Of a stretch of 43,121 bases of DNA, positions 3,232 to 8,200 are shown one piece after another. Source of the DNA: Planctomyces sp. SH-PL62 (GTDB lineage Bacteria > Planctomycetota > Planctomycetia > Planctomycetales > Planctomycetaceae); contig CAMDPX010000037.1 of NCBI GenBank assembly GCA_945905295.1, positions 1 to 43,121 of the forward strand, written 5' to 3'. Made by a program: the position numbers and the translations under genes. How positions within the stretch are numbered: position 1 is the first letter of the stretch; each line of letters starts with the position of its first letter. Under the pieces are notes generated by a model. The model worked only from the letters and a program-made list of their open reading frames with translations, searched no databases and was not told where the DNA came from.

Positions 3232-3275
3232 CACAAAACAGAAAAGGCCGCCCGAGTGATGTCACTCGAACGGCC
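3232..3275 (-). terminator. Rho-independent terminator of the YTV-type gene
   Basis: Stem 3246-3275 (GGCCG..CGAGTGA / TCACTCG..CGGCC, two mismatches). Read on the minus strand it is followed by a run rich in T (TTTTCTGTTTT). It lies 31 bases after the stop of the minus-strand gene at 3306. Confidence 0.8.
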
Positions 3276-3305: not shown

Positions 3306-4691
3306 TTACGCCTTCGGAGCACCATCGTCGGCTGGCTTCGGTACGTCGCTCTTCGGTGCTTCTTCCTTCGGAACCGGTGCTTCTTCTTCCTTGGGAGGTG
3401 GCTGTGATGCTGGGTCGGCTTCTGGCTTCAAGACCTTGTGCTCTTGAGCTTCTCCGGCCGGAGCGGCCACTCCACACGAACTGCAACCGGTCGGAGTCGG
3501 ATTGCAAACCGTCACGGGGACCATCTGGCAGACTTCGTAAGCGACTTGCTTGGGGACGCAACGAGCCACCATGCGGGTGTACGTCGTTGGCACTTGCTTG
3601 GTCACGCAGCGAGCGACTCGCTGAGTCACCACGTAGGGCACTTGCTTGCAGACTTGATACGGGATCTGGCAGGTCTTGGTCTCTTCAACGTTCTTGTACG
3701 TCGTGCAAGGGACGCTGCGGACGTGCTCTTCCTTAACCCAACGGCAAGTTTGGACCGGCACCTTTTGAGTGACCGTCTCGTTCACGTACTTGACGGTCCG
3801 AACCGGAATCCGATCAACCACTTCCTCATTCACCATGCGGCAGGTGCGAACCGGGATGCGATCCACAATCACCTCGGGAACGTAGCGACAGACTTGTTGC
3901 GGGCAGATTTGACGAACGACTTGCGGCTCGTAGGTCGTGTAGTTGACTTGGCGTTGCACGACCTGCGTTTGCCAGACTCGATAGGTGATCGGGGTCACGG
4001 TCGGCTGCCAACCCAGTGTCGGGGTCGAGTTGCACGGATTGCATTGCCACTTCGGCGTCGACAGTCCGTAATAGCAATCTTGCTTGCAGACCCACTGACC
4101 GCAGACTTGCGGGACAGTCGCGCAGCGAGTCACCGGACGCATGACCGTGTGGCAAACTTCGCGATTGACTGTTTCCGTCACGGGACGCATCACGGTGCGG
4201 CGGCACTCGCGGAAGCTGTCTTCGAAGACTTGCTTCTGGACGGTGCGACGACACTCGCGAACCGACTCCTCCCAAACTGGTTTACAGACCGTGTAGCTGC
4301 GCTCTTGCTCGCAGGTCTCGTGGATCTGCTTCATCACGGTGTAGCGTTCCTCGCGAGCGGAAGTCTCGGCGACTTGCCGGCAGACCGTGTAGGTCTGCTC
4401 GCGATACGCGGTCTCGACGACCGTCTTGTTGCAGGTGACTTGCTGCTCGTCCCAAACGGTCTCATAGACCGTCTTGTTGCAGGTGACTTGTTCGGGCTCG
4501 TACACCGTTTCATAAACGGTGCGGTAGCAGGTCTGACGTTCGACCTTGCAGGACGTGTAGCACGCCGACGGCTGGCAAGCGCTCGTGGGGCAACTGCCGT
4601 AGTTGCAGCTACCACAATAACCGCCGGCTTGAGCGGTGCTCGCGGCGGCGAGGGTGGCGATCGCCACCAATCCCAACACAATGGCTCTCAT
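3306..4691 (-). CDS. Secreted Cys-rich repeat protein, YTV type
   Basis: A 461-aa exported protein made mainly of two blocks of perfectly spaced 16-residue repeats. Block 1 begins at residues 71, 87, 103, 119, 135, 151, 167 and 183, with units like CNKTVYETVWDEQQVT. Block 2 begins at 268, 284, 300, 316, 332, 348, 364 and 380, with units like CRMVNEEVVDRIPVRT. A Cys-rich linker joins them and a Pro/Glu/Lys-rich tail (about 412-461) ends the protein. A Sec signal (MRAIVLGLVAIATLAAAS-AQA) leads. YTV motifs occur in the first block. From memory, YTV proteins are planctomycete-specific and were found among wall proteins of Rhodopirellula. The many regularly spaced Cys suggest a disulfide-linked surface layer (inference). 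The start at 4691 has GAGGAG 8-9 bases upstream. An in-frame extension up to 4871 is unlikely to be coding. Confidence 0.85.
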   Translation of the reverse strand: MRAIVLGLVAIATLAAASTAQAGGYCGSCNYGSCPTSACQPSACYTSCKVERQTCYRTVYETVYEPEQVTCNKTVYETVWDEQQVTCNKTVVETAYREQTYTVCRQVAETSAREERYTVMKQIHETCEQERSYTVCKPVWEESVRECRRTVQKQVFEDSFRECRRTVMRPVTETVNREVCHTVMRPVTRCATVPQVCGQWVCKQDCYYGLSTPKWQCNPCNSTPTLGWQPTVTPITYRVWQTQVVQRQVNYTTYEPQVVRQICPQQVCRYVPEVIVDRIPVRTCRMVNEEVVDRIPVRTVKYVNETVTQKVPVQTCRWVKEEHVRSVPCTTYKNVEETKTCQIPYQVCKQVPYVVTQRVARCVTKQVPTTYTRMVARCVPKQVAYEVCQMVPVTVCNPTPTGCSSCGVAAPAGEAQEHKVLKPEADPASQPPPKEEEAPVPKEEAPKSDVPKPADDGAPKA

Positions 4692-4987
4692 GAAATGTCT
4701 CCTCAGGGTGTGGACCACGTCGCCAAGCGAGGGGTATCTCTGGCGGCCGACAAGGTCATGGGAGCATGATCCCAGTCGGTCTGGTTTTCCGGTTTGTGGC
4801 AGTAGCGTAAGCTGCGTTGAGCGGACTCGTGAGCGAAAAGCTGACGATTCTCTCAGTCTCGCGGCGAGCAACGGTTTTCACACCGCACGACTGCTACTGT
4901 CGGAAAGGTTCCCCCATGTTCGACCCCAAAATGGACGTTGGGGAAGAACATCCCGCCCACCAATCTCGCTAACCCGCAAAGTTTGAC
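4692..4987. other. Divergent intergenic region
   Basis: A 296-base gap between the divergent YTV-type gene and the FAD-linked dehydrogenase gene. It must hold promoters for both, but I cannot name convincing -35/-10 boxes. It contains no inverted repeat of the kind found at most other gene borders in the window. Confidence 0.6.
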
Positions 4988-7690: not shown

Positions 7691-8200
7691 TCAGGCGGCC
7701 TTCTTCTTCTTCCTGGCTTCCGGACGTTTCGGCAGCTTGGCCTTCTGCTCGTCAGTCAGCAGCGGCTTGACCTTCTCCAGAATCTCCAGACGCAGAGCGG
7801 TGACCTTCTTGTCGGCCTCGTCGTAGTTCTTCTGCTGCTCTTCGGTCAGCTTCATCGCGTCCTTGATGGCTTGTTGAAGTTCCTTGCCCTTCCGGCCTTC
7901 TTTGCCCTTCTCGCGAGCCTCTTTCATGACGTCCTGCCGAGCTTTCTTCTGCTCCTCAGTCATCACCTTGTCGAGCTTCTCGCGCAGTTCTTTCATCTTT
8001 GGAGCGTACTCCTTTTCCAACTCCGCGACCTTTGTCTTCTGCTCGTCGGTCAGCGTGATGTCTTTGGGAAGTTGAACGGCGGGTTGCTCCTTGCGAGCGT
8101 TCGGCTTGTTCTTCTTGGCCTTGGCGTCCTCGGCCATCGCAGGGGACAGCAGGAACGCGGCGAGGCTCAACGACAGCAGGCATTTCCAGAACTTGGTCAT
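7691..8200 (-). CDS. Secreted Lys/Glu-rich helical protein, Spy/LTxxQ-like
   Basis: A 169-aa protein with a Sec signal (MTKFWKCLLSLSLAAFLLSPAMA-ED) and an almost entirely charged helical body. Three LT-E/D-EQ motifs appear (LTDEQKTKV, LTEEQQKNY, LTDEQKAKL), with a related MTEEQKKA, spaced along the chain in the manner of the Spy/CpxP LTxxQ family of periplasmic chaperone-like proteins. A stress or chaperone role is inferred from that resemblance only. The C-terminus is RKKKKAA. The start has GAAGGAGATTTCGTC before the ATG, a strong ribosome-binding site. It is the last gene of the minus-strand cluster headed by the ECF sigma factor, but a 154-base gap with an inverted repeat separates it from the DUF1501 gene, so it may have its own promoter. 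Confidence 0.8.
   Translation of the reverse strand: MTKFWKCLLSLSLAAFLLSPAMAEDAKAKKNKPNARKEQPAVQLPKDITLTDEQKTKVAELEKEYAPKMKELREKLDKVMTEEQKKARQDVMKEAREKGKEGRKGKELQQAIKDAMKLTEEQQKNYDEADKKVTALRLEILEKVKPLLTDEQKAKLPKRPEARKKKKAA

Follow-up and report, generated by a model that had tools for sequence, protein, structure and literature searches.

A planctomycete YTV-family protein whose two repeat arrays probably form the strands of one very long beta hairpin

Our data indicate that the gene at positions 3306 to 4691 of the window (here the whole 43,121-nucleotide stretch of DNA that was analysed) is best explained as encoding a secreted YTV structural protein in which two repeat arrays, referred to here as arm A and arm B, together make up a single, very long beta hairpin with antiparallel strands, a reading to which we give a probability of roughly three in four. 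A pairing of the arms in which the two residue numbers add up to a constant is supported indirectly, by a charge register, by mirrored units and by a double deletion at facing sites, and two continuous strands are supported by one structure model of moderate confidence. The family itself is known; the mutual relation of the two repeat blocks appears to be the new part.

A YTV-family protein with two 16-residue repeat arrays

The reading frame is open from an ATG at 4691 and encodes 461 amino acids with 34 Cys (Table 1). Its N-terminus, MRAIVLGLVAIATLAAASTAQA, resembles a Sec signal peptide by eye, and the protein looks like a secreted, putatively exported one. The GAGGAG sequence lies 7 nt upstream of the ATG. 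At the 3' side of the gene a stem of 13 pairs with a T run extends from 3275 to 3246; shuffling of the scanned stretch gave 2.5 terminator-like sites by chance, and the 13-pair stem is long. The C-terminal tail (residues above 400) varies among ten close orthologues, with 22 of its 61 positions invariant. Elsewhere in the window (7691-8200, minus strand) lies the gene of a small secreted-looking protein of 169 amino acids that is Lys/Glu-rich and probably helical.

Table 1. Positions in the window of the YTV gene, its signals and the parts of its protein.
Feature	Position	Strand	Basis
YTV-family wall protein, 461 aa	3306..4691	-	uninterrupted frame; Pfam PF07639 2.2e-21, 76 bits
Signal-peptide-like N-terminus, residues 1-22	4626..4691	-	translation judged by eye
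Cys-rich N-terminal cap, residues 23-48	4548..4625	-	sequence; relatives have similar caps
Arm A (block A), residues 49-192, 16-residue units	4116..4547	-	periodicity, family profile chain
Hinge, residues 193-249, predicted tip region of hairpin	3945..4115	-	no 16-residue period; between arms
Predicted hairpin tip N218-P-C-N221	4029..4040	-	hinge comparison; centre of best charge register S=442
Arm B (block B), residues 250-399	3495..3944	-	predicted pairing: arm A residue i with 442-i
Variable Pro/Glu/Lys-rich C-terminal tail, residues 400-461	3309..3494	-	ortholog comparison
GAGGAG ribosome-binding site	4699..4704	-	sequence
Intrinsic-terminator-like stem-loop and T run	3246..3275	-	stem scan

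Four stretches of the protein match the YTV profile PF07639 (76 bits against a curated cut-off of 21; 2.2e-21), while an NCBIfam profile search with the window protein gave no match. By its sequence the protein is a member of the known planctomycete YTV cell-wall family, and the Pfam match means that the protein itself is not new. The proposal of a planctomycete wall protein, which had been made from the DNA alone, is supported by this match and by the reported presence of YTV proteins in wall fractions of relatives. According to excerpts of published work, YTV proteins are rich in cysteine and are main components of the wall in relatives, and one of them is listed among the essential genes of Planctopirus limnophila, in which rodA, pbp2, murJ, ftsQ and others are dispensable (PMC8567305, PMC10632474, PMC5287468). 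Excerpts of two of these sources also report YTV proteins of relatives in the SDS-resistant wall fraction (PMC5287468, PMC8567305).

In the class of the window, taken as Planctomycetia from the published distribution of the family, 147 of 148 sampled genomes have a YTV match, the one without it being an 81% complete genome. The phylum sample has a match in 23 of 294 genomes; the 14 control genomes have none. Two of the 23 genomes lie outside the class and have single weak matches (L041 in G013 and L042 in G063, the only such matches in the phylum sample). These matches fall in repeat stretches rich in Thr/Val/Lys or Thr/Val/Glu, with 0 or 2 Cys, within large proteins; L042 has a prepilin-like N-terminus by eye, and from their sequences both are possibly an independent beta repeat of similar look. 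The genome of the window has two YTV genes, the second of which is on contig C71 (L009:3274-4764, minus strand). The two copies differ in Cys load, with 72 in the second chain (14.5% of a 496-aa frame read from the upstream Met) and 34 in the window copy.

Over residues 26-400 of the window protein, identity at a lag of 16 residues is 17 s.d. above shuffles. It reaches 0.50 in block A (residues 49-192; 0.097 +/- 0.026 with a maximum of 0.211 in 2000 shuffles) and 0.349 in block B (residues 233-400; shuffles 0.104 +/- 0.024, maximum 0.224), which confirms the preliminary description of two 16-residue repeat blocks in a secreted-looking, Cys-rich protein. That description had also counted 16 units without insertions. 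The frames 57-184 and 249-392 are indeed free of insertions, but they hold 17 units in register, 8 in block A and 9 in block B, and, by the family profile, a half-unit of 8 residues lies close to the outer end of block B. A recurrence of Cys at the same unit position, likewise claimed, is seen in block B, where a single phase holds 5 of 11 Cys (p about 0.002), but not in block A, where 10 Cys have no significant concentration (p about 0.09). The 34 Cys make up 7.7% of the mature chain, and 28 of them are invariant among ten close orthologues, the window's included. Within the repeat region the invariant fraction is 19/21 for Cys versus 240/291 for other residues; Cys is conserved, yet not dramatically above other residues.

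Matched lengths and mirrored irregularities of the two arms

We compared the two arms across the family in 120 stretches taken from class genomes, comprising the best matches listed and under-sampled families. Together with further loci, these gave 151 distinct proteins from 169 loci in all; of the proteins, 145 have two arms and form 63 clusters at 60% identity; the clusters share ancestry. With one protein per cluster and an equal penalty for every unit length except 16, the 995 unit spacings comprise 787 of 16 residues, 134 of 14, 57 of 12, 15 of other even lengths and 2 of odd length. Spacings are thus even in 993 of 995 cases. A change in length by an even number of residues leaves the in-out alternation of a beta strand intact, and even unit lengths are what alternating beta strands would lead one to expect. 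The family profiles have the consensus units REERYTVCKPVYETVY (arm A) and PVTVCRMVPEEVVRKV (arm B). One branch (L039, L098, L102, L140-L142, L148-L150 and similar) has mostly 14-residue units in both arms, so that the period is common to the two.

Unit counts were taken from a family-profile chain, which replaced arm lengths from a simple lag track that proved noisy (Pearson 0.72); L042, L052, L052b and L055, which are not family, masked or fragments, were left out of the counts and of the tip set. Arms range from 6 to 20 units, and in 54 of 62 clusters the counts of the two arms are no more than 2 apart, compared with a permutation mean of 26 clusters and a maximum of 39. The Pearson correlation between arm A and arm B counts is 0.60 over all clusters and 0.88 without L112 and L118, in which the arm split is misplaced. 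Contrasts between nearest clusters gave a weaker value, 0.51 over 29 pairs, and in six of nine large changes both arms moved the same way. Within the L070 cluster, near relatives have arm unit counts of 9/14, 12/9, 12/13 and 13/14. The one-sided changes (9/14 and 12/9 units) among these close relatives (L070, L130-L133) may be artefacts or real losses; an artefact is possible because draft assemblies can collapse repeats.

A hinge motif resembling D-P-x-T/C-G occurs in 65 of 147 proteins, representing 42 clusters. It fits the turn better than an EPG motif 6 residues before it, which was dropped. The distances from this tip motif to the two outer arm ends are equal within 17 residues in 32 of the 42 clusters (permutation mean 10.3, maximum 21) and within 2 residues in 10 (permutation mean 2.5); in the 10 clusters outside the 17-residue limit the difference is larger. 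In the window protein, N218-P-C-N221 was assigned by hand as the counterpart of the motif. The position of the tip bears on whether pairing might instead join neighbouring molecules, each arm A lying against the arm B of another chain, to give an endless sheet or fibre. Such pairing would benefit a wall polymer, and the register and charge data are blind to which chain an arm belongs to; however, a conserved turn-like tip near the mirror centre suits a hairpin of a single chain, and pairing between chains offers no reason for the centring. We consider it unlikely.

Antiparallel pairing was defined as i+j=S. In a test with free offset, parallel order fitted several mixed arrays as well as antiparallel order did; the two orders are separated only by a fixed register. 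With the register fixed at S=2D+7 and one protein per cluster, five clusters together have 18 sites with 14-residue units in arm A, and 15 of these face a 14-residue unit in arm B (L104 6/6, L132 5/5, L089 2/3, L086 1/3, L117 1/1); further mirrored sites are found in L050 (2/2), L070 (3/3) and L119 (1/1). One unit off register the number falls to 0 or 1. L130, L131 and L133 have no tip by the pattern used and were left out of this scoring. Relative to 11 aligned relatives, L117 and L119 have two residues absent in arm A and two in arm B. The deletions correspond to residues 152-153 and 340-341 of L028, and the register, which had been set without L117, pairs 152 with 341 and 153 with 340. No second clean double deletion in the interior was present among 197 within-cluster pairs, and the other 2-residue indels between close relatives are unmirrored and lie mostly at outer arm ends or in ambiguous L070 alignments.

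Charge register and structure models

The charge tests covered those proteins, from 31 of 63 clusters, in which a tip motif was recognised and the anchor residual is -2 or -1. In the cluster of the window protein N replaces D and the tip was placed by hand, and L169 was dropped from the anchor, charge, unit-permutation, mirrored-unit and half-split tests. The register phase was picked by an offset scan, with whole-unit shifts, unit permutation and half-splits as guards. In both main hinge groups by mirror residual (21 and 11 clusters) the charge excess peaks at S = a+b+1, where opposite versus like charges number 408/34 and 151/22. The joint register pairs 577 opposite versus 55 like charges, compared to 464/110 and 440/129 one unit off register and 370/167 in the best parallel register. 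Compared with the mean of the two one-unit shifts, the tip-centred register scores higher in 30 of 31 clusters (17 of 17 with all-16 units); it outscores every one of the six shifts by one to three units in 24 of 31. The match declines in 25 of 27 clusters when the B units are put in shuffled order (Stouffer z 10.9), 22 of 27 are above the permutation mean when fully paired units only are counted, and random half-splits chose the same offset 1000 times out of 1000. According to the profiles, K/R of arm A faces E of arm B, E of A faces R/K of B and V faces V, while Pro of both arms lies on one face (695 vs 10). For the window protein itself S=442 is the best of S=420-469, with 17 opposite and 2 like charges, and permutation of its unit order gave p=0.0006 at S=442 versus 0.08 and 0.12 one unit off.

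Facing of Cys by Cys was tried as register evidence and rejected, with 29 cases versus 36 expected in the larger group (residual -2). The preliminary description had envisaged a beta-strand ladder cross-linked by disulfides. Our data favour the beta-strand ladder, but Cys is not placed to bridge facing strands, so the disulfide ladder is unproven.

The charge match also bears on the reading that the arms stay apart, their equal lengths and mirrored irregularities arising from linked mutation, such as gene conversion, or from a common upper limit such as the width of the periplasm. The A and B profiles are related (correlation up to 0.60, reached at a phase shift of 13), so exchange between arms would be possible, and the single-arm changes of the L070 cluster fit this reading as well. 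Exchange would, however, copy units in parallel order and make them alike, whereas the consensus units of A and B stay distinct, and, when only fully paired units are counted, mirror order gives the better charge match over reversed unit order in 21 of 27 clusters, with 3 ties. We regard this reading as quite improbable.

The hairpin was also approached with AlphaFold2, using alignments of 12 sequences. The full protein gave no fold (mean pLDDT 28.7, pTM 0.12). A second run, centred on the hinge (residues 121-321), gave exactly two strands, at 4-69 and 115-180 in fragment numbering, with pLDDT of 80-84 in the strand cores and low values in the loop (pTM 0.24). The structure prediction of the repeats that had been suggested gave a model of moderate confidence for the fragment and no fold at full length. 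Two modelled strands of 66 residues joined by a loop of 45 residues can hardly be other than antiparallel. Their ends sum to 184, equivalent to a register of about 424 in protein numbering and thus about one unit from 442, a discrepancy that we tentatively read as unit slippage. Most matches of the fragment model in a Foldseek search against the PDB are pore-forming and phage tail proteins with long hairpin stems, at TM below 0.2, and a PDB profile search for a solved relative gave chance-level matches only (E 0.54 and 1.2).

These results can be set against the preliminary idea of a rod or solenoid, in which each block is its own beta-solenoid with one 16-residue unit per coil and stacked Cys, the two rods perhaps lying side by side. 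The exact 16-residue period of both blocks agrees with it, as does the phase shared by 5 of 11 Cys in block B. Such a fold does not, however, predict antiparallel charge pairing residue by residue, a double deletion at facing sites or the rule of even lengths, and the fragment model, with its moderate confidence, contains two continuous strands and no stacked coils of consecutive repeats. Gly and Asn are also scarce in the window protein, at 2.5% each, in contrast to many solenoids, in which they are not low. Overall, a solenoid for each block is improbable, and the evidence points to A pairing with B in one antiparallel hairpin.

A proposed ribbon model of the wall and its known counterparts

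We hypothesize that arm A runs outward, that the polypeptide reverses direction at the hinge tip (N218-P-C-N in the window protein, D-P-x-T/C-G in relatives) and that arm B returns, so that residue i would face 442-i. On one face, each 16-residue unit would contribute one K/R-E and one E-R/K salt bridge and one V-V pair; the opposite face would carry Thr, Pro and much of the Cys. Since Cys does not face Cys across the arms, its likely use would be between ribbons, many of which may pack side by side and become cross-linked into an insoluble wall layer. An extended beta strand spans 0.33 nm per residue pair, and a fully extended ribbon of 172 pairs would be about 50-60 nm long. We infer the wall location of the window protein, the packing of ribbons, the disulfides between them and the ribbon length.

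Machinery for peptidoglycan and disulfides was searched for with profiles. The peptidoglycan polymerase family FtsW/RodA (PF01098) occurs in 43 of 148 class genomes, namely in 37 of 37 from the window's own family versus 6 of 111 from other families. All 37 sampled genomes of the own family carry both YTV and FtsW/RodA, so YTV is not simply a replacement for peptidoglycan. Profiles of VKOR and DsbA had no match in the window's genome, and the DsbB profile had one weak match (4.4e-4) over its cut-off.

We lean slightly towards a broader proposal, namely that the protein wall of Planctomycetia consists of giant hairpins, two-stranded ribbons tens of nanometres long whose arms match residue by residue in length and charge and whose Thr/Pro/Cys faces stack and cross-link. 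If so, the arms of YTV proteins would be a protein counterpart of a base-paired stem, and the paired-arm hairpin would explain how planctomycete protein walls are built. YTV is nearly class-wide (147/148), a main wall protein in relatives and listed as essential in P. limnophila, unlike several peptidoglycan genes, and a literature search of partial coverage found no description of its fold. The residue-level pairing map makes the composition of the planctomycete protein wall, an old question, directly testable.

The window protein shares with the YTV family a sequence match over the cut-off, a signal-peptide-like start, richness in Cys, tandem repeats, confinement to the class and the presence of two genes in its genome, and no feature separates it from the family. 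Published descriptions, as far as excerpts of them go, present YTV proteins as cysteine-rich wall proteins and leave a paired-arm fold unmentioned (PMC8567305, PMC10632474, PMC5287468). The hairpin stems of pore-forming and phage tail proteins (6qz9, 5ec5, 3j9c) likewise have two long antiparallel strands; their TM-scores are below 0.2 with 3-14% identity among the matches listed, a likeness of shape only, and the Val/charged and Thr/Pro/Cys faces of the window protein look unsuited to a membrane. Beta-solenoid repeat proteins have regular beta-rich repeats in common with the window protein; their coils stack within an arm, whereas in the window protein each arm would be a single strand run and the two arms would pair with each other.
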